From Kiritimatiellia bacterium (GTDB lineage Bacteria > Verrucomicrobiota > Kiritimatiellia > UBA8416 > JADHWI01), in contig JADHWI010000025.1 of the NCBI GenBank assembly GCA_016783565.1, positions 1 to 35,808 of the forward strand: a stretch of DNA of 35,808 nt, in the 5' to 3' direction. This document shows, one piece after another, positions 185 to 35,808 of this stretch. The notes under the pieces are model-generated. The model saw nothing but the letters and a program-made list of their open reading frames with translations, did no database searches and was not told where the DNA came from. Every line of letters starts with the position of its first letter. Within the stretch, counting starts at the first letter, position 1. A program made the position numbers and the translations under genes.

Positions 185-1336
185 CGGGTCCGCTTGCTCA
201 CCCGCCTGCCCCCTCTTTTCCTCATCCATCGTGCGATGGCTTCCGGACAGGAATTCGGCCACCACGGCGCATTCGAGGCCGAAAGGAAGATAGCCGGTAT
301 AGCCCAGGATCGGCATCTCAAATAACTTGAATCGTCCGACAAACGGTACCGCGTAGATCCATTTGGCCATGCTGCAGATGTTCCACAGCTCCCAAAAAAA
401 ACCGCAGATCAATGCAGCCAATGCCAACAGCACAATGTTTCGCCAGTTACCTTGCTCCAGCGCGGCAAAGATCGTGCGCTGTCCGCGTATGCTTTGCAGT
501 GAAGTAATCACCAGAAGTGGCGCGAGCCACAAGAGGGGGAAAAGGAAATCAGGCCACACACCCACAGCCGCCAACCCCGCACATGATAGCAACAGTACCA
601 CCCACGCCCAAACGCGTGGACGAGCAACGCGAATAAAAATAAAACTCTGAAGCCCTGCGGATAATTGGGGCCAGGTCGCCAACAAATCACGCGTGCCAAG
701 CACCGCCGGTAACACCGTTGAAAACGGAAGTGTGGCATAAACAAAGTACTGCCACCGCGACAGATCGTTGAGCCCAACGTAGTACCAATTTTGCACAAAA
801 CGATTGAGATATTCGAAGTACCACCAGAACAGGGCACTCAACACAAACAGCGCAGCCGTATAACCCGGTTTATCACGCAGCATACAGCGACCACTTCGTC
901 GAAATGTCCAGGCATTGACAATCAAAATATATCCGAACCAGAGCGGCGAAAACGTAAATGCCTGCAACGGCGAGAACCATTCAAAACGCGTCCATGCCAA
1001 TACCCACGTCACACCCGTAACCGCGATGCCCAGCCAACCCCACCAGGGAAAAAAATGACACTGCACCTCCAGCGGTTTAGCGGTTAATTGTCGCCGCAAG
1101 ACCCGAATCATAAACGGAAGCACCACGACAAGAGTCAAGAAGGCAAGCGCGATAAATATCAACCATGAAAATTCAGCATGCTCAACGTAATGTGTCAACG
1201 GAGGAAATTCCAGGTACTGTTGAATCGGTTTACCGACCAGCACAATGCCAACCAATGGTAGTGTCACCAGCAACAACAAAACATCAAGAATGCTTCGCAT
1301 ACGTCGCCTCTTACTTAAACGATAAGATGACTTCAT
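155..1336 (-). CDS. Multi-pass membrane protein with internal duplication, function unknown
   Basis: This 393-residue protein has about eight to ten hydrophobic segments (roughly 14-36, 57-78, 97-116, 129-145, 158-175, 196-213, 242-280, 300-320). The start chosen is the ATG at 1336 because GGAGAGG lies 5 nt before it; an ATG ten codons upstream has no such site. Two segments look like copies of one unit: E175-x2-N178-x5-W184-x-Y186 and E316-x2-N319-x6-W326-x-Y328, each at the end of a Trp/Phe-rich helix and followed by a Pro-containing hydrophobic stretch. The repeated architecture suggests an integral-membrane enzyme or carrier built by duplication, but I do not recognise the family. The last nine codons and the stop lie in a dispersed repeat (153-184). 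The tail around residues 368-385 is hydrophilic and acidic. Confidence 0.8.
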   Translation of the reverse strand: MKSSYRLSKRRRMRSILDVLLLLVTLPLVGIVLVGKPIQQYLEFPPLTHYVEHAEFSWLIFIALAFLTLVVVLPFMIRVLRRQLTAKPLEVQCHFFPWWGWLGIAVTGVTWVLAWTRFEWFSPLQAFTFSPLWFGYILIVNAWTFRRSGRCMLRDKPGYTAALFVLSALFWWYFEYLNRFVQNWYYVGLNDLSRWQYFVYATLPFSTVLPAVLGTRDLLATWPQLSAGLQSFIFIRVARPRVWAWVVLLLSCAGLAAVGVWPDFLFPLLWLAPLLVITSLQSIRGQRTIFAALEQGNWRNIVLLALAALICGFFWELWNICSMAKWIYAVPFVGRFKLFEMPILGYTGYLPFGLECAVVAEFLSGSHRTMDEEKRGQAGEQADPEVAIVESAL

Positions 1337-1541
1337 TGTACCTCTCCTTCCGGAACGACCGGTCACTTAAACATAACGGATAAGAAACCGATCGTTCCTT
1401 TATTACAGTTTGCTGCTGAATCATCCATGTTTTTTACATCTCTTTTATGCTCCTTAGCCCACCAGGGTGCGACGTTCCGCTCGACTTACGGCCCCCTGCG
1501 CCCCTGCGGCTCACCACGATTCCCCTCTACCCGTGGCAGAC

Positions 1542-1583
1542 GGAGCCGCACCTACAGATTTAGCTTTTCTGTAGGGCCGCTCC
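1542..1583. repeat. Long GC-rich hairpin over the end of a gene
   Basis: On the plus strand GGAGCCGCACCTACAGA is followed by a 9-nt loop and TCTGTAGGGCCGCTCC, giving a long imperfect stem. The stop codon of the 263-residue membrane protein (1554-1552) is inside the stem. A further GCCGCTC/GAGCGGC hairpin overlaps the right end. It may act as a transcription end or RNA stabiliser, but there is no T-tract, so I call it a structured repeat rather than an intrinsic terminator. Confidence 0.5.
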
Positions 1584-2343
1584 GCGAGCGGCTCGACTCA
1601 GTACACGCTTTAAACGCACGCCACATACGCTCATAAAAGTTTTCTTCAAAATACCCCTGTTGCACAAAGTGAGGCTCAATAGTGGGGTCACAAAGAAACG
1701 GACTCAACAACCAGGACAATTCACACCCGACAAAACCGGAAACGCCAATCCAGGCGACCATCAATGCCACCGTAAGACGTTTACGAATCTGAAGCGCTAC
1801 AAGCAAACGGTAAAGCTTAAGGTTGCCGGCGATACCGGCTGCCCCAATAACGGAAACATGCGCAATCAGTAACCACCAATATACACTCGTAATAGGATCT
1901 GCCGCGCGATCGGTTAGCTCGAATTCGAGATATGCCATGCCGGGCGATGGGAGCTGCGCAATCAGAAATAATAGAACCGGACTGAACGCCCCCAGCAATG
2001 AAGCTGCAACCGCTAATCCGATCAACATACAAATACAGACCTGGCGGAAGCTCAATGCCGCCCCGAACACTTGCGCCAGCATGGTGTTAGCCGTGGCGCT
2101 GGTCAGAACGGTAGCGAAAAAAAGAACCGGCATTTTTAGAGCAGAATAAAGTCCCTGCAACGGTGCACGCCACATACCGAACACAAATCCGTACGCCATC
2201 GTACCTAAGAGAATCGTGACGATCCCACCCGTCACGATACGGCGGCTGTCACGGTTCTCGTGAACACATGCCACCAGGTCCGATCCCATGCGGCAAAAGC
2301 TTCCGGGACCGGACAAAGATGCTCTGTTAGCAAGATGACTCAT
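1552..2343 (-). CDS. Membrane protein, second member of a paralogous pair
   Basis: The 263-residue protein has about six hydrophobic segments (roughly 36-58, 68-92, 101-130, 153-180, 190-212). It shares a layout with the gene just upstream: a YGF(V/M)xGM segment after the first helix, and a late helix ending in a CELSWLLSPF motif (207-216), matching LRPLVG in the partner. I associate this layout with bacterial inner-membrane proteins of unknown function that carry a W-x-LRPF-x-G motif. Its ATG overlaps the upstream stop codon (ATGA, 2343-2340) and has no ribosome binding site, so translation is probably coupled. The last dozen codons (SRSRSGPTEKLNL) fall in a dispersed hairpin repeat and may be a recent addition. 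Confidence 0.75.
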   Translation of the reverse strand: MSHLANRASLSGPGSFCRMGSDLVACVHENRDSRRIVTGGIVTILLGTMAYGFVFGMWRAPLQGLYSALKMPVLFFATVLTSATANTMLAQVFGAALSFRQVCICMLIGLAVAASLLGAFSPVLLFLIAQLPSPGMAYLEFELTDRAADPITSVYWWLLIAHVSVIGAAGIAGNLKLYRLLVALQIRKRLTVALMVAWIGVSGFVGCELSWLLSPFLCDPTIEPHFVQQGYFEENFYERMWRAFKACTESSRSRSGPTEKLNL

Positions 2344-3158
2344 CGTCTGTGCTTTAGATATGGGACTTGTGAATGTGCTTCTTTATGAGGGGCGCTCCAA
2401 TGCTGCAAAAAGAACTTCTTACCGAGCAAACGTGCCCCCTGATACTCGCCGACCAAAGGTCGAAGCGTCGTCGTCATCTGAAGAACGACCAAAATGAATA
2501 TCGTCGCCCACGTTCGAAAGACGCCGGGGTTACAACGGCTGAGATGCGACAAGGCAGATTCCAGCAATCGCAAGCCAAAGAGCACGCCAATGCCCCAAAA
2601 AGCGAGATGAATGCCTCCCATGAAAGCCGTCGCGTTTGTGGCCTGGGAAAACACCCACGCCACAGGCGCAAAACCTATCAGCAAAATACCGCCCAGGGCC
2701 AGCGTCGCCATGAGCAAACTTGCAACCTGCGATAAGGACTGATCGCCGCCAGCCAAACAAGTAAAGATGTACAAGCTGGGCAGACAGATAACCGCAGACA
2801 ACAACAGCCCCAGGCAGACCTTGGCTGGCACGGCCCATAACTGGTGACCGCCGGAAAACATGCCCATAACCAGGCCATAGCCCAACATGCAAACCATCGC
2901 TATAGAGATAAGCATGAGGGTCAAGCGCTGGCGATTGCCCTGGATGAGCTCACAGACAACTTGGGCCGGATGTTTAAGCAAGGCGCTCACCACAGTTTGT
3001 GTGGTCGCGTTATCTCCGAGCAGTACATAATCATCCGCAAATGCGGCTGATGCACAGTTCCGAGACTTTCCACGAACCCTTCTTGCGGCTTCCGCTTCAT
3101 GCAAGCGCTCTCTTTGCCCCAAAGAAATCTCCCCGTCAGGTCTGGATGTGTCGTTCAT
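2340..3158 (-). CDS. Membrane protein, first member of a paralogous pair
   Basis: The 272-residue protein has a charged cytoplasmic N-terminal region (1-76) and about six hydrophobic segments (roughly 79-101, 108-135, 143-170, 178-198, 213-231). The last is followed by TLRPLVG (231-237), a motif also seen in degenerate form in the downstream gene. AAGGAG lies 10 nt before the ATG, slightly far. A 23-bp operator-like element sits 63-85 nt upstream of the start (3221-3243), and an identical arrangement precedes the regulator operon, so the adjacent winged-helix protein probably controls this gene. Function unknown. The pairing with its downstream paralogue suggests a two-subunit membrane complex. 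Confidence 0.78.
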   Translation of the reverse strand: MNDTSRPDGEISLGQRERLHEAEAARRVRGKSRNCASAAFADDYVLLGDNATTQTVVSALLKHPAQVVCELIQGNRQRLTLMLISIAMVCMLGYGLVMGMFSGGHQLWAVPAKVCLGLLLSAVICLPSLYIFTCLAGGDQSLSQVASLLMATLALGGILLIGFAPVAWVFSQATNATAFMGGIHLAFWGIGVLFGLRLLESALSHLSRCNPGVFRTWATIFILVVLQMTTTLRPLVGEYQGARLLGKKFFLQHWSAPHKEAHSQVPYLKHRR

Positions 3159-3220
3159 TTTCCATCTTCTCCTTTCGTGTTGCTTCCGTTCTCAATTAAG
3201 GCTTCCATCGGCTCTTTACC

Positions 3221-3243
3221 CAAAGTACTTTGTAATGCAAAGT
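3221..3243. promoter_or_regulatory. Candidate operator, copy 1
   Basis: CAAAGTACTTTG (a perfect 12-bp palindrome) is followed by five bases and CAAAGT. The inner part, ACTTTG-N5-CAAAGT, is itself a perfect inverted repeat of 17 bp. The same arrangement occurs at 4296-4318. It lies between the regulator gene and the LRPF-pair operon, where a promoter is expected. Confidence 0.6.
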
Positions 3244-3284
3244 ATGTCGCCAGAAGAAACCTCCACCCCTTCGCGTTGTAATCC

Positions 3285-3659
3285 TTATGCCAATACGGTT
3301 TTCTCGGACGGGACCTTTTGAATGGCAGGCTCTTCCTGCAATCCCTGTTGTGCTACAGACAGAACTTGTTGCAATGCAGATAGATAATCCTGAAAACGTT
3401 GCAATCCCTTTTTTGAAAGAGTTACTGTTGTTTGAGGCTTATTCTTTACAAATGCCTTGGTAATACAAATCGCTTCAGCTTCGTCGAGCACCTTTAAATG
3501 TCGATTAAGATTACCATCGGTCAAGTCACACTGGTTGCGTAATTCGTTAAAGGTCAAACTCGTATCCGACGCACATAAGGCTGACATAATAGAAAGTCGA
3601 TTCGGTTCGTGAAAAATTTTCTCAAGAGCATCAAAAGGATTCTGATCAGAGATAGTCAT
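3285..3659 (-). CDS. Winged-helix transcriptional regulator (ArsR/MarR-like, HTH_34 type)
   Basis: This 124-residue protein is almost entirely one winged-helix domain. An N-terminal helix with P-x-R-L-S-I-M-S-A-L (residues 17-26) is followed by the recognition segment LTFNELRNQCDLTDGNLNRH and a wing around residues 69-84. The pattern fits the small one-domain regulators of the HTH_34 (PF13601) group, relatives of ArsR without the metal-binding cysteines. The ATG at 3659 overlaps the stop of the upstream membrane protein by 4 nt (ATGA), indicating coupling, so I reject the long 5' extension. Two copies of an inverted-repeat element (3221-3243 and 4296-4318) flank the regulator operon and are the obvious candidate binding sites. 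Confidence 0.85.
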   Translation of the reverse strand: MTISDQNPFDALEKIFHEPNRLSIMSALCASDTSLTFNELRNQCDLTDGNLNRHLKVLDEAEAICITKAFVKNKPQTTVTLSKKGLQRFQDYLSALQQVLSVAQQGLQEEPAIQKVPSEKTVLA

Positions 3660-4261
3660 GATCCGGGTTCCTCCATACGGTTGCGATAAAGTACGATTCC
3701 TCCGGCCAACTCGCCGGCACCGAATACCAGGCCCATCGGCCAGGGATTGGTAAAACTGACACAAGGGGACAGCAGACAATATGTTCCACAGATCATATAG
3801 AAAACGCCTACAATATAGTTCATTCTTGGCAGCGACTGGCGATAGGCTACATGAACCAGGCCATAAAGGCACATCCAAGCACCGAACAAAAGGTCGTATT
3901 GCTCGTGCAAAACCAGCGACAGGCTGAAAACTGCGCCAATACCCAATGCCGGGAGTGCATCTGCAGCGGGTTTCAGCTGCCTCAAGTCACGCTGTACTGC
4001 AGCATCACGTAAAAACCAAATCGCCAAGCCACCATAATTGGCAATCATTCCAATCGCGAGCACCCCCGTCCAACCCGCAAGATGCGCCAGGGGCGAAGCG
4101 GGAAACGCTGAACGACTCATCGCATAGGCACCCAATAATGCAACAGCCCCTCCAACCACCCGCGCCTTACCGGAATAACCTTTAAACCGCTGCTTTGCCA
4201 GCACCAGCTCCTGCATCCTGCGGACTTGACCCATGGCATCATGAATGTGGTTTGCTATCAT
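3656..4261 (-). CDS. Five-helix membrane protein co-encoded with a regulator
   Basis: The 201-residue protein has an amphipathic N-terminus (1-34) and about five hydrophobic segments (36-50, 60-85, 102-140, 147-168, 174-192). The start at 4261 is preceded by AAGGAAG at good spacing. The reading frame is open 24 codons further, but those codons run through the operator at 4296-4318 and are presumably not translated. It is the first gene of an operon with the winged-helix regulator (4-nt overlap). Genes of this type next to HTH_34 regulators may be sensors or effectors of the same response. I do not recognise a named family. Confidence 0.75.
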   Translation of the reverse strand: MIANHIHDAMGQVRRMQELVLAKQRFKGYSGKARVVGGAVALLGAYAMSRSAFPASPLAHLAGWTGVLAIGMIANYGGLAIWFLRDAAVQRDLRQLKPAADALPALGIGAVFSLSLVLHEQYDLLFGAWMCLYGLVHVAYRQSLPRMNYIVGVFYMICGTYCLLSPCVSFTNPWPMGLVFGAGELAGGIVLYRNRMEEPGS

Positions 4262-4295
4262 TTTTTCTTCCTTCGCCATGTAACATATAAAACCA

Positions 4296-4318
4296 CAAAG
4301 CACTTTGCAACACAAAGT
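4296..4318. promoter_or_regulatory. Candidate operator, copy 2
   Basis: CAAAGCACTTTG is followed by five bases and CAAAGT, with ACTTTG-N5-CAAAGT a perfect inverted repeat. It matches copy 1 (3221-3243) in all three hexamers but one base and in all spacings. It lies 35-57 nt upstream of the ATG at 4261, so it would overlap the promoter of the membrane protein/regulator operon. Confidence 0.6.
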
Positions 4319-4447
4319 TTCATCTTTTTTCACGGCTTCATTGTATATAGAATTCTTTCATTCCATATTACACTTGACGGTTTAGGACATCAGTCCCACC
4401 ATTATTCAATATAGAAAGTCACATAAAATATAATCGTGAGGATTCCC

Positions 4448-5083
4448 GTGAAAAAATGGAAACACACACACCAGTCACAATCCACCATCACTGGTTTCAC
4501 GCTTCTTGAGCTACTTGTTGTTGTCGCCATTATCGGTATTATCGTTTCCCTCATGATTCCCGCGCTACATATGGCTAAACAGCGTGCCATGAGAACAAAA
4601 TGCGCCTCCAAGCTACGCCAAATGTATGCTGCCAATATAGCCTATTCCGGTGATCATGGCGGTCAAGGGGTCACGAATGCTTGCTGCGGCCTGCCTCCAT
4701 TCTGGTTTCAAGACCTTGGGCCCTACCTGACAGAGCGCGAGGACGATCCTTGCGGTCCTGAGCTCCGATGTCCGGCTGGAGAGGCAACGGACCTGTTTGG
4801 CGAGACCTACGACGAAGGTACGTGGGAAGGCGTTGATTACGGCCTAATCCAAGCGGCGGTAAACTTCATGGGCTTGGAAGATCCCAAACGCACCGCCATG
4901 TTTCTCGACAGTCATGGTGAATTTACATTGATCAATGAAGGTGTCTTCACCGGCATGATGAGCAGTTCAGGAGCAAAAGTCCTCCGTCATCCAGGTGGCG
5001 ATATCGGGTCCATGAATGTTGTTTTTTGCGATGGTCACCTTGAAGTTGTTCTTGACGCAGAGTACGAAGATCTCGTGCCTTGA
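4448..5083 (+). CDS. Prepilin-type pseudopilin with H-X-DG domain, copy 1
   Basis: The protein begins with a short basic leader and a type III signal peptide: cleavage and methylation before Phe at TG|FTLLELLVVVAIIG, with the conserved Glu five residues in. A single N-terminal helix is followed by a globular domain that ends in a His...G-S-M-N-V-V-F-C-D-G-H box, the H-X-DG signature of PVC-type pseudopilins. The spacer here is 13 rather than the usual 9 residues. The GTG at 4448 is preferred because GAGG lies 6 nt upstream; an in-frame GTG at 4436 adds four residues. The product should be processed by a prepilin peptidase and belong to a type II secretion-like or pilus-like assembly. It is a tandem duplicate of the next gene. 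Confidence 0.85.
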   Translation: MKKWKHTHQSQSTITGFTLLELLVVVAIIGIIVSLMIPALHMAKQRAMRTKCASKLRQMYAANIAYSGDHGGQGVTNACCGLPPFWFQDLGPYLTEREDDPCGPELRCPAGEATDLFGETYDEGTWEGVDYGLIQAAVNFMGLEDPKRTAMFLDSHGEFTLINEGVFTGMMSSSGAKVLRHPGGDIGSMNVVFCDGHLEVVLDAEYEDLVP

Positions 5084-5132
5084 TTGTGACAACCCATAGA
5101 AACATACACAAACTCGGGTATTTAGTAACATC

Positions 5133-5777
5133 ATGAATAAAAACACACCGAGTCTTGCGCAATCCGAAACACGCGGTTTCACACTCCTTGAACTACTGGT
5201 TGTTATTGCCATTATCGGTATTATCGTCAGCCTGATGATTCCCGCATTACACATGGCAAAACAGCGCGCCATGCGAACTAAGTGCGCCTCCAAATTGCGA
5301 CAAATGTATGCTGCAAACACGACGTATTCCGGCGATCACGGAGGTCAGGGCGTATACAACTATACCGCCAGCGGTGGCGGTACTGTATATTGGTTTCAAG
5401 ACCTGGGCTCTTACTTGACTGGACGCGATACGGACGCTGAGCCCTGTGGTCCGGAACTACGTTGCCCTGCAGGGGAGGCAAACAGCCTGTTTGGCGAAGA
5501 ATATAACGAGGGAACATGGGAAAGCGTTGACTACGGCCTTATGGAAGTCGCTCTGATCTTCAACGGCGTTGAAGATCCAAAACGAACCGCCATGTTCCTC
5601 GACACCCATGGGGATGATGCCTTAATGGATGAGCCGACTTTCACCACGATGATGAGCAGTGGCAGCGCTAATGTGCTACGGCATCCTGGCGGCACAATAG
5701 GGTCTATGAATGTCGTCTTCTGTGATGGTCATCTTGAAATGATTCTGGATGCCACCTACGAAGACCTGGTTCCTTAA
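5133..5777 (+). CDS. Prepilin-type pseudopilin with H-X-DG domain, copy 2
   Basis: The 214-residue protein has the leader cleaved at RG|FTLLELLVVIAIIG and the C-terminal HPGG...MNVVFCDGH box. It is close to identical with the preceding gene in the N-terminal helix and first 60 mature residues, and diverges more in the middle (YNYTASGGGTVYWFQDLG against NACCGLPPFWFQDLG). No convincing ribosome binding site precedes the ATG, though the 49-nt gap makes co-transcription with copy 1 likely. The mature proteins keep conserved cysteines (CGPELRCPAGE), which could form a disulfide. A weak AAGAAC/GTTCTT stem follows at about 5790. Confidence 0.85.
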   Translation: MNKNTPSLAQSETRGFTLLELLVVIAIIGIIVSLMIPALHMAKQRAMRTKCASKLRQMYAANTTYSGDHGGQGVYNYTASGGGTVYWFQDLGSYLTGRDTDAEPCGPELRCPAGEANSLFGEEYNEGTWESVDYGLMEVALIFNGVEDPKRTAMFLDTHGDDALMDEPTFTTMMSSGSANVLRHPGGTIGSMNVVFCDGHLEMILDATYEDLVP

Positions 5778-31896: not shown

Positions 31897-31935
31897 CTAA
31901 CCGAATTCTAACATCACCCTCACAACCGTTTAACG
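31897..31935 (+). promoter_or_regulatory. Pho-box-like array of four 11-bp repeats before the porin gene
   Basis: CTAACC, CTAACA, CTCACA and TTAACG start at 31897, 31908, 31919 and 31930, exactly 11 bp apart. The last ends 9 nt before AATACT (31945-31950), a plausible -10 element. Direct repeats of this spacing are the usual PhoB/PhoP layout; TTAACA-type half-sites are like those of Bacillus PhoP. The downstream gene encodes a phosphate-type porin. The remaining 180 nt before the ATG look like a 5' leader. Confidence 0.6.
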
Positions 31936-32114: not shown

Positions 32115-33281
32115 ATGAAAGCAATTAGAATACTGAGTTTCTTCATGGTTTTGGCATTCGCCGCCTCCGCTGTCATGGCCGGGGGCGTCAAATACCAGAA
32201 CGAAGACGGTCATTACCTGAAGTTGGGTGGTCGCATCCAACTGCAGTATCATATGGAAGACCCCGATGACGGTGAGTCGACGGACGAGCTGAAGTTCCGC
32301 CGCTTTCGTCCATACATTGAGGGTAGCGTTCATCAAGACTGGAAGGGCAAGTTCCAGTGGGACATGGGCAAGGGCGACACCGAGGTGAAGGATGCCTACT
32401 TCCAGTTCTCTGGTTGGGATGGCATCAAGGTCACGATCGGTAATGCGAACTTCCCGTTCTCGCGTGAATTCCTGACGTCTTCAAAGAAGCAGCAGTTCGT
32501 CGAACGCACCTTCGTGGGTGACCACAACTACGGTACGCCTGACCGTCAGGCCGGTGTGCACGTTGAGGGCTCCCTGTCCGATAAGCTGATCACGTGGGCC
32601 GTTTCCGGTGGCGTGGGTTCCGTGGACCCCGACAATAAGAAACTGGATATGGACACCACGGTTTCTTTGAACAAGGGCGACGACTGGAGCGATGGCCCGA
32701 TCATCGGTGGGCGTGTTGAGCTGTTTCCGATGGGCTATTTTAAGCCCGAGCAGGGAGACTTGAAGAAGGGCGACTTCAAAGCCGCCGTTGCTGTGGCTGC
32801 CTTCGCCTGGGAGAACGACGAGGACAATCTTGACAGCGACATGGTCGAAGCCGATGACGGCGCGATGACCCGCAAGGTTGGTAAGCAGGATGTTGACAGC
32901 ATCACCGGTGTTGAGATCAGCGCCGCCGTACGTGGTGCCGGCCTGTCTGTGGATGCCGAGTACAACACGTTCGACTCCGAACTGGTTGCCGGTGGCATCA
33001 ACAGCGGCCTCTACAGCGACAGCGAAACGACGCTGGAGAACTGGTCGGTCGAAGGTGGCTACATGATACTTCCCGGGAAGCTCGAAGTGGTTGCCGGCTA
33101 CCAGGTACAGGATGCCGACGGCTACTCAGACGAATGGACGCGCTCATCTGTGGGTGCCAACCTCTTCGTGAAGAAGCATGACATCAAGTACCAGGTGACG
33201 TACCAGGTCGGCGAAAACAAGGATGGCAAGGACGGCAACGATGTAGACGAGCTGTTCGTACAGGCACAGTACGTTTTCTAG
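32115..33281 (+). CDS. Phosphate-selective porin of the OprO/OprP type
   Basis: The 388-residue protein has a signal peptide (1-22, VMA|GG), then LKLGGRIQLQYHM and KFRRFRPYIEGSV, typical of the first strands of the Porin_O_P family. Alternating-residue strands run to the end, with terminal Phe (QAQYVF), the outer-membrane assembly signal. The protein is acidic and rich in Asp and Gly in its loops. GAAGGAAG lies just before the ATG. A Pho-box-like array lies 180 nt upstream, and pstS follows. It should let phosphate or other anions cross the outer membrane. Codon use is GC-biased and even, as for a highly expressed gene. Confidence 0.9.
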   Translation: MKAIRILSFFMVLAFAASAVMAGGVKYQNEDGHYLKLGGRIQLQYHMEDPDDGESTDELKFRRFRPYIEGSVHQDWKGKFQWDMGKGDTEVKDAYFQFSGWDGIKVTIGNANFPFSREFLTSSKKQQFVERTFVGDHNYGTPDRQAGVHVEGSLSDKLITWAVSGGVGSVDPDNKKLDMDTTVSLNKGDDWSDGPIIGGRVELFPMGYFKPEQGDLKKGDFKAAVAVAAFAWENDEDNLDSDMVEADDGAMTRKVGKQDVDSITGVEISAAVRGAGLSVDAEYNTFDSELVAGGINSGLYSDSETTLENWSVEGGYMILPGKLEVVAGYQVQDADGYSDEWTRSSVGANLFVKKHDIKYQVTYQVGENKDGKDGNDVDELFVQAQYVF

Positions 33282-33311
33282 ATCAGTCACACGATAGAAG
33301 GATAAAACATC

Positions 33312-33701
33312 ATGATAGTGAAAGCCGCTCACATTGAGTCGGAAGGATCACGCGAGATCCTGCGTAACGCTCTGCTTTCCCGGCAGGCCGTTGATCTGGA
33401 AGCCCTGGTGAACTCGACCGGCATGGACGCCGGGACGGTGCGCAAGGAGCTTCGGTCGTTGGTGGCTGCCGGTGAGGTCGAAGAGTTGCGCCCCGTGGCT
33501 TTCATGGAGAAGCAGCGGCGGGCGACGGTGTCGACGCACTACCGCCTGTTGCGCGAAACCGACACGAAATACCTTTGGGAACAGTCCCTTGTTGTACGAA
33601 TTCCGGCTGCGCGGGCATTTAACTTCCGTCAACAGGAATCCGGCGAAAGGGGGATTATCCCAGTTCAAGAGCAACACAATGAAAAAGGAAGGAAAACAAA
33701 G
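33312..33701 (+). CDS. Winged-helix region reading in frame into pstS
   Basis: An ATG at 33312 with AAGGA 10 nt upstream opens a frame of 130 codons that continues without a stop into pstS. Residues 10-70 look like a helix-turn-helix/winged helix (SREILRNALLSRQAVDLEAL, then GTVRKELRSLVAAGEVEEL). Residues 95-130 look like translated non-coding DNA. It may be a small regulator whose stop was lost, a real N-terminal domain of a longer PstS form, or a chance extension. It starts 31 nt after the porin stop. Confidence 0.5.
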
Positions 33702-34556
33702 ATGAAAAAGACAAGACAAGCAATACTGGGAATCGTGTGTGCTGCGGCATGCACCGGTTCGATCGCTCTGGCGGAAGAAACGTTGACATTGGATGGATCC
33801 ACTACAGTGGGCCCCATTGCCAAAGCGTTCGCAGAGTACTACATGAGCCTGAACAAGGACGTGAATGTTACGGTGGGAGAATCAGGCAGTGGCAATGGAG
33901 CCAAGAGCCTGGTGAACAGCACCTGTGATGTTGCGAACCTGTCCCGGTTCATGAAGACGAGTGAGTTCGAGGCGGCAGTGAAAAACGGTGTGACGCCAGT
34001 CGCGCATGTGGTGGCTATGGATGGTCTTCCGGTTCTGGTGCACCCGAGCAACCCTGTCACGGATCTGAAAGTATCCCAGGTGCGCGACATCTTCTCCGGA
34101 AAGATCACGAACTGGAAACAGGTCGGTGGTCCGGACCGTGACATCATCACGATCAGCCGCGAGACCAACAGCGGTACGTACGAGACCTTCTACAAGCTCG
34201 TCATGACGCACAAGGTCAACGACGAGAAGGTGAAAGAGAAGATCGCGGAAAAGACCGAGTACGTGGGCAGCAACGGTGCCATTCGTGCCCGTATCCAGAA
34301 AACCCCGAACGCTATCGGCTATGCCGGCCTCGGGTTTGTGGACCGCACGGTCAAGGCGCTTGAGATCGAAGGTGTATACCCGGACCTGGATACGGTGACG
34401 TCCGGCGAATATGCGATCTCGCGGCCGCTATTCATGTTTACGAACGGGTACCCGAAGCTCGGTAGCCATGTACACCGTTTTGTGACCTTGCACTTGGGTC
34501 CGAAGGGTCAGGAAATCGTGGAGTCCATCGGCTTTGTTCCTGTGACGAAGTACTGA
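33702..34556 (+). CDS. pstS: Phosphate ABC transporter substrate-binding protein
   Basis: The 284-residue protein begins with a signal peptide (1-24, ALA|EE). LDGSTTVGP (30-38) and ESGSGNG (60-66), followed by SRETNSGTYE and the C-terminal GFVPV, are the phosphate-binding loops of PstS. The start at 33702 has AAGGAAGG about 10 nt upstream and puts the signal peptide at the N-terminus. An intrinsic terminator follows. Function: binds inorganic phosphate in the periplasm and delivers it to PstCA. Confidence 0.93.
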   Translation: MKKTRQAILGIVCAAACTGSIALAEETLTLDGSTTVGPIAKAFAEYYMSLNKDVNVTVGESGSGNGAKSLVNSTCDVANLSRFMKTSEFEAAVKNGVTPVAHVVAMDGLPVLVHPSNPVTDLKVSQVRDIFSGKITNWKQVGGPDRDIITISRETNSGTYETFYKLVMTHKVNDEKVKEKIAEKTEYVGSNGAIRARIQKTPNAIGYAGLGFVDRTVKALEIEGVYPDLDTVTSGEYAISRPLFMFTNGYPKLGSHVHRFVTLHLGPKGQEIVESIGFVPVTKY

Positions 34557-34574: not shown

Positions 34575-34611
34575 AGCCCGCAGCGTCTGGAGCGCTGTGG
34601 GCTTTTTTTTT
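34575..34611 (+). terminator. Intrinsic terminator after pstS
   Basis: AGCCCGCAGCG and CGCTGTGGGCT form an 11-bp stem with one G-U pair, a 7-nt loop and a run of eight or nine T. It ends the porin-pstS transcript, so pstC needs its own promoter or read-through. Confidence 0.92.
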
Positions 34612-34630: not shown

Positions 34631-34669
34631 CTAACACAAATTTAACACAACCCTAACACGGCATCAACG
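34631..34669 (+). promoter_or_regulatory. Pho-box-like array of four 11-bp repeats before pstC
   Basis: CTAACA, TTAACA, CTAACA and TCAACG start at 34631, 34642, 34653 and 34664, exactly 11 bp apart. A weak TAGTCT (34679-34684) lies about 10 nt beyond the last copy, as at the porin promoter. The array sits directly after the pstS terminator. Confidence 0.7.
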
Positions 34670-34731: not shown

Positions 34732-35808
34732 ATGGGAATACATGTATCACAGGCCGGAAGCCTGGTAATGAGCACCCGGGCCAACCTTCGCCAGAAGCTG
34801 ACGAAAGTCTTCGGCGAGGGATTGCTATTCGTCATCACATCGGTGGCGGCCATTGCAGTCCTGTTTATCATTCTCTTCATTGCCAAGGATGCGATTCCCT
34901 TTTTTGAAGCGCGTGGCTTCAAAGAGTTCTTTACGAGTACCCGGTGGTATCCATCCCAGGAACCGCTGGAATTCGGCGCGCTGGCTATGTTTGTCGGTAC
35001 CGGACTGGTGACTGCGGCGGCCGTCTTGTTCGCCATGCCGCTAGGTGTGGCAGCCGCTGTGTGCTTGAGCGACGTGTTGCCTTTCTCGGCGCGACAGATC
35101 GTGAAGCCTATCATAGAAATTCTGGCTGCGATTCCATCGGTGGCGTACGGCTTTTTTGCACTCGTGGTGTTTGCACCCCTCTTGCAGGATCAGGGCGGGC
35201 GTGTGTTGGCTATCGCCTGGTGGGTGGCGGCAACACCGCTTATCCTGATTACAGCCATTGTGCTCAGTGACTTGCTCACGGGTTTTCTGGGGAACGAGTC
35301 GGCACGGAGATGGGCACGACTCGCAACACTCGTATTGTTCTGCGCGGCCGGCCTCTGGCTTCTCACGGCAACAGGCAGTACGTTGCGGGCCCTGCAGATC
35401 AACAGTGGTACCAATGCCCTGAACGTAGCAATCATTCTCGGAATCATGGCCCTACCGACGGTGGTCAGTGTCTCGGAAGATGCCCTGCAGGCCGTGGGTC
35501 GTGAGCTGCGGGAGGGAAGCTACGCCCTGGGATCCACGCGGGCGGAGACGCTCTGTAAGACCATTATACCGGCAGCTAGCAGCGGCATACTGGCGGCGGT
35601 ATTGCTGGGTGTCATGCGGGCCATGGGTGAAACGATGGTAGTCTGGATGGCCTCCGGCAATGCCTCGCAGATCCCCAAACCATTCTACAATCTTCTAGCT
35701 CCGGTCAGGACTCTGACAGCCACGATTGCGGGGGACATGGGCGAGGCCGACCACGTCACCGGCTCGGCGCGTTACCATGTCCTGTTTGCCATGGGGCTGT
35801 GTCTACTG
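34732..35808 (+). CDS. pstC: Phosphate ABC transporter permease PstC, cut by the window edge
   Basis: The first 359 codons are present. After a 30-residue cytoplasmic N-terminus come hydrophobic segments at about 35-56, 81-105, 121-145, 155-175, 195-213 and 225-243. The cytoplasmic EAA loop is EGSYALGSTRAETLCKTIIP, followed by GVMRAMGETM, typical of PstC. Compared with a 300-residue PstC there is an extra segment (about 178-220) between helices. GGAGG lies 8 nt before the ATG. It is preceded by a Pho-box-like array, and pstA and pstB probably follow. Confidence 0.93.
   Translation, partial: MGIHVSQAGSLVMSTRANLRQKLTKVFGEGLLFVITSVAAIAVLFIILFIAKDAIPFFEARGFKEFFTSTRWYPSQEPLEFGALAMFVGTGLVTAAAVLFAMPLGVAAAVCLSDVLPFSARQIVKPIIEILAAIPSVAYGFFALVVFAPLLQDQGGRVLAIAWWVAATPLILITAIVLSDLLTGFLGNESARRWARLATLVLFCAAGLWLLTATGSTLRALQINSGTNALNVAIILGIMALPTVVSVSEDALQAVGRELREGSYALGSTRAETLCKTIIPAASSGILAAVLLGVMRAMGETMVVWMASGNASQIPKPFYNLLAPVRTLTATIAGDMGEADHVTGSARYHVLFAMGLCLL

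Follow-up and report, generated by a model that had tools for sequence, protein, structure and literature searches.

We asked whether a long open frame near the end of the window (the whole stretch of DNA analysed, 35,808 nucleotides of a Kiritimatiellia contig) encodes one protein that joins a DNA-binding domain to the phosphate-binding protein PstS, or whether two ordinary genes have run together. The initial annotation, made from the letters alone, had described a helix-turn-helix-like region that reads into pstS with no stop between the two, and had considered a ToxR-like membrane protein, two products from one frame, and an accidental fusion after a stop was lost. Reading of the contig confirmed the frame: 33312-34556 on the plus strand contains 414 codons uninterrupted by stops.

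The open frame and its parts

The features of the locus are listed below.

31897..31935, + strand: tandem repeats of 11 nt resembling a Pho box, CTAACC-CTAACA-CTCACA-TTAACG, ahead of the porin gene (repeat scan)
32115..33281, + strand: Porin_O_P, phosphate-selective-type outer membrane porin, first gene of the operon (PF07396, E 9.1e-16)
33297..33302, + strand: Shine-Dalgarno GAAGGA ahead of the winged-helix ATG at 33312 (taken from the sequence itself)
33312..33599, + strand: winged-helix domain (codons 1-96), from a family of small proteins encoded in operons (family profile, fold models, third-position GC)
33600..33701, + strand: codons 97-130, variable winged-helix tail running on to the pstS leader, the region that holds the stop in relatives (third-position GC, low pLDDT, weak similarity to the L130 tail)
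33685..33692, + strand: Shine-Dalgarno AAGGAAGG of pstS (read directly from the DNA)
33702..34556, + strand: pstS, 284 aa when read from its own ATG (TIGR02136 match; orthologs start at the same place)
33702..33773, + strand: PstS signal peptide MKKTRQAILGIVCAAACTGSIALA, probable cut between ALA and EE (hydropathy; L004 ortholog)
34575..34611, + strand: intrinsic terminator after pstS, 12-pair stem, T8 (terminator scan)
34631..34669, + strand: Pho-box-like tandem repeats upstream of pstC (repeat scan, 18/18)
34732..35808, + strand: pstC, incomplete at the contig end (PF00528; matches PstC of relatives)

The downstream part is an ordinary PstS. Residues 131-414 are a full TIGR02136 member, the full model matching frame residues 147-411 with 264.1 bits against a curated cut-off of 206.6, and the protein differs from other members only by its upstream in-frame extension. 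It is encoded alongside pst genes, with pstC following at 34732 in the window and a pst gene order in relatives. The strong internal start at 33702 proposed in the initial annotation holds up, as pstS has kept its own Shine-Dalgarno, ATG and signal peptide. The L004 ortholog has ASA followed by EE at the position matching ALA and EE of the window protein.

The upstream part starts at ATG 33312 behind a good Shine-Dalgarno sequence. AlphaFold, run with 25 family members, predicted that residues 5-95 fold as a winged helix, with pLDDT of 85-97 over most of the core and low confidence for residues 97-130; a separate 97-residue model agrees. Foldseek matched the model to winged helices of the MarR, TFE-alpha and ArsR types, at TM-scores that were moderate, about 0.4-0.6. 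Residues 1 to about 95 are thus confidently predicted to be a MarR/TFE-like winged helix, in line with the helix-turn-helix-like region first noticed. MarR/TFE-alpha-type proteins are the closest predicted folds. There is no significant sequence family match; in Pfam and NCBIfam, residues 1-130 gave no confident family match. Conserved winged-helix residues are intact in the fused copy, and no decay is visible, a point against an accidental join.

Between these two parts the coding signal fades. Third-position GC falls from 0.73 over codons 1-96, a value like that of the neighbouring genes, to 0.44 over codons 97-130, with 0.31 for codons 115-130 taken separately; in pstS it is 0.70. The linker fits the end of a winged-helix gene plus a pstS leader, minus a stop. 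Because it has no coding signature, we counted it in favour of an accidental join and against a ToxR-like sensor.

Separate genes in relatives

We built a family profile from nine members and searched it over 346 genomes of the class, which returned about 26 sites with E values under 1e-6. The window's match stood in an open frame of 416 aa in this search; all other strong matches had frames of 117-176 aa, and among them no second fused copy was found in these genomes. Weak matches in frames of 260-500 aa (DeoR/GntR-like and others) were judged to cover no more than the helix-turn-helix of other regulators, and we dropped them. A wider search of the phylum found no full-length members outside the class.

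The winged-helix gene lies directly before pstS in 11 relatives. The initial annotation had held that a stop between the two parts in relatives would refute its reading; such a stop is present in 11 of 11. Nine of them have the two genes in different frames, so that loss of the stop there would miss the PstS frame. The remaining two (L089 and L130) have a single stop as the sole break in a common open frame, which makes the open join in the window unremarkable as a matter of chance. L130 is the nearest relative found, with its porin, winged helix and PstS 66%, 37% and 74% identical to those of the window; none of the comparison genomes shares the genus of the window genome, and the sole one that shares its taxonomic family lacks a match to PstS. 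In L130 the gene order and frame are as in the window: porin, winged helix, TGA, 42 nt, pstS ATG. The linker tail resembles the L130 tail weakly (shuffle p of about 0.02), too weakly to place the lost stop. In two other genomes, PstS orthologs about 78% (G023) and about 72% (G014) identical are encoded directly after the porin, and the winged-helix gene is absent.

These comparisons support the option that a stop was lost and the fusion is accidental, since relatives keep two genes with a stop between them. The best explanation, to which we give a probability of about 0.7, is a stand-alone winged-helix gene of a Pho operon, likely a local regulator, whose stop is absent here. Its absence may reflect recent stop loss, a small deletion or a wrong base in the assembly. 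Most likely the join is confined to the window genome and either arose by accident or reflects an assembly error.

A substitution or indel error in the metagenome-assembled contig could hide the winged-helix stop, in which case the organism would have no fusion at all. We regard this as a real possibility, though short of an even chance. The window genome is in 77 contigs with 84.8% completeness, and the stop is present in every relative. Moreover, TAA at 33620 and TGA at 33680 lie one frame away in the linker, so a single indel upstream, real or erroneous, could also explain the join by having displaced an ordinary stop. However, the sequence bears no specific sign of error, and the codon bias is intact through codon 96. 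Either way, the case is a caution about domain fusions seen in one genome of an assembled metagenome.

A small winged-helix family in nutrient operons

Counted by hand, with L099 and L100 left out, the family comprises about 27 small stand-alone proteins from Kiritimatiellia-type genomes. About 21 of the 27 are in pst/pho loci, where the usual layout is porin, winged helix, and then pstS, phoU, pstB or phoB. Two members lie between cysteine/methionine metabolism genes, and for two or three more the context is unclear. The window genome also has a paralog, located after amtB-glnK and before an outer-membrane protein gene. A literature search returned nothing on pst operons in Kiritimatiellota, nor on winged-helix genes within pst operons.

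Several individual loci stand out. At G000:C64 (locus L075, 2798-8064), a winged-helix paralog and an outer-membrane protein gene lie between two tandem amtB-glnK pairs. At L094 (4763-9261) and L091 (4067-9991), in genomes of different families, members are found among genes for cysteine synthase and Cys/Met PLP enzymes. The L080 locus (1058-5364) runs from porin and winged helix into a frame for a PhoB-like response regulator, with a PAS/HAMP histidine kinase next. In L077 (4981-7691), porin and winged helix are followed by a MetX-like homoserine acetyltransferase frame, which replaces the pst genes.

Upstream of the porin gene, 31897..31935 is likely the promoter region of the operon. The best three-unit score of its repeats was 17/18, and none of 300 shuffles was as good. 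A scan of the window for CTAACA-type tandem repeats found 4 against 0.36 expected. The same type of 11-nt repeat occurs upstream of most orthologous porin genes in relatives; because the motif for that scan was picked after viewing the window, the relatives and not the window are the independent test. Pho-box-like repeats were not found upstream of amtB, and a sigma-70 scan gave no consensus promoter. The operon carries the mark of a Pho regulon, tandem 11-nt PhoB-type repeats upstream, as putative PhoB sites. The simplest reading is a PhoB-controlled unit of porin, winged helix and pstS, with the second gene as a local regulator.

From its predicted fold and gene order, the winged-helix family is most likely a local regulator of nutrient-acquisition operons. 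The protein would bind DNA and regulate its own operon, which would form a second layer below PhoB.

A rather unlikely alternative is that the winged-helix protein works with the transporter as a protein partner, the role proposed for FeoC, and is not a DNA-binding regulator. FeoC of the feoABC iron operon is likewise a small winged helix within a transport operon, and its DNA binding has not been demonstrated (PMC7762939). FeoC (PF09012) was the most frequent Pfam match in a profile search of nine members, though a weak one (6 of 9, best 2.8e-4) that did not include the window copy. FeoC structures appeared weakly in a PDB profile search, and a comparison with E. coli FeoC gave a partial match, to be taken as a lead only. 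Family members also adjoin pst, amt and phoU/glnK genes. However, the FeoC similarity is weak and confined to the helix-turn-helix core, and members are also found beside biosynthetic cysteine/methionine genes where a transporter is absent. Unlike FeoC, the family is longer and has a conserved Y-R...D...W motif at the C-terminus; the window copy has no cysteine in residues 1-130 and hence lacks the cysteine motif of the FeoC wing. No feoB neighbour was found, the neighbours being pst/pho, amt/glnK or cysteine/methionine genes.

A broader version of the local-regulator reading, which we consider improbable, is an undescribed family of interchangeable local regulators, one for each nutrient operon (phosphate, ammonium, sulfur amino acids) in Kiritimatiellia-type bacteria, of which the phosphate copy has been joined to PstS in the window genome. 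If this were true, the join would tie synthesis of the regulator to export of the phosphate-binding protein. The small winged-helix family could be a general local regulator of nutrient operons and is the more interesting part of this locus than the fusion. It is a modest new lead, an uncharacterised family that recurs in loci for the acquisition of phosphate, nitrogen and sulfur, in a phylum that has been little studied.

Possible products of the joined frame

If the sequence is right, ribosomes that start at 33312 cannot stop before 34554 and hence would read on into PstS, and most PstS would still start from 33702. Sec export would use the signal peptide, which is now internal. Signal peptidase would probably cut between ALA and EE; this would free normal PstS, and a stub with the winged helix would stay behind at the membrane.

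It is very improbable that the fusion and the short PstS are two products of one frame maintained by selection, for instance as a regulator tethered near the membrane. The frame does contain two good ribosome sites, but the arrangement is seen in one genome only; it is shared by 0 of the 11 adjacent relatives, and the other strong family matches are unfused.

We assign hardly any probability to a genuine ToxR-like one-component phosphate sensor, in which a cytoplasmic winged helix, one transmembrane segment and a periplasmic phosphate-binding domain would signal across the membrane. The frame shares with ToxR/CadC the order of winged helix, hydrophobic segment and periplasmic domain, and both of its domains are intact. 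However, the winged helix is of another subtype. That of ToxR has the OmpR fold with an N-terminal beta sheet (PMC8517210), whereas our fold models begin with a helix at residues 5-23 and lack this sheet, and a Pfam search gave no Trans_reg_C match in the frame. The hydrophobic segment is probably not a retained anchor either. The whole frame has one hydrophobic stretch only, the PstS signal peptide beyond residues 1-130, and its hydropathy is modest (best 19-residue window 1.86). As a plausible signal peptidase site is kept, the periplasmic domain would probably be freed, which makes a retained sensor unlikely. The ToxR-like layout of the initial annotation therefore finds no support here, given the separate genes in relatives, the missing beta sheet and the probable cleavage.

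Elsewhere in the window, 4436-5083 and 5133-5777 encode two adjacent pseudopilin-like proteins that closely resemble each other and carry a methylation-type motif at the N-terminus.
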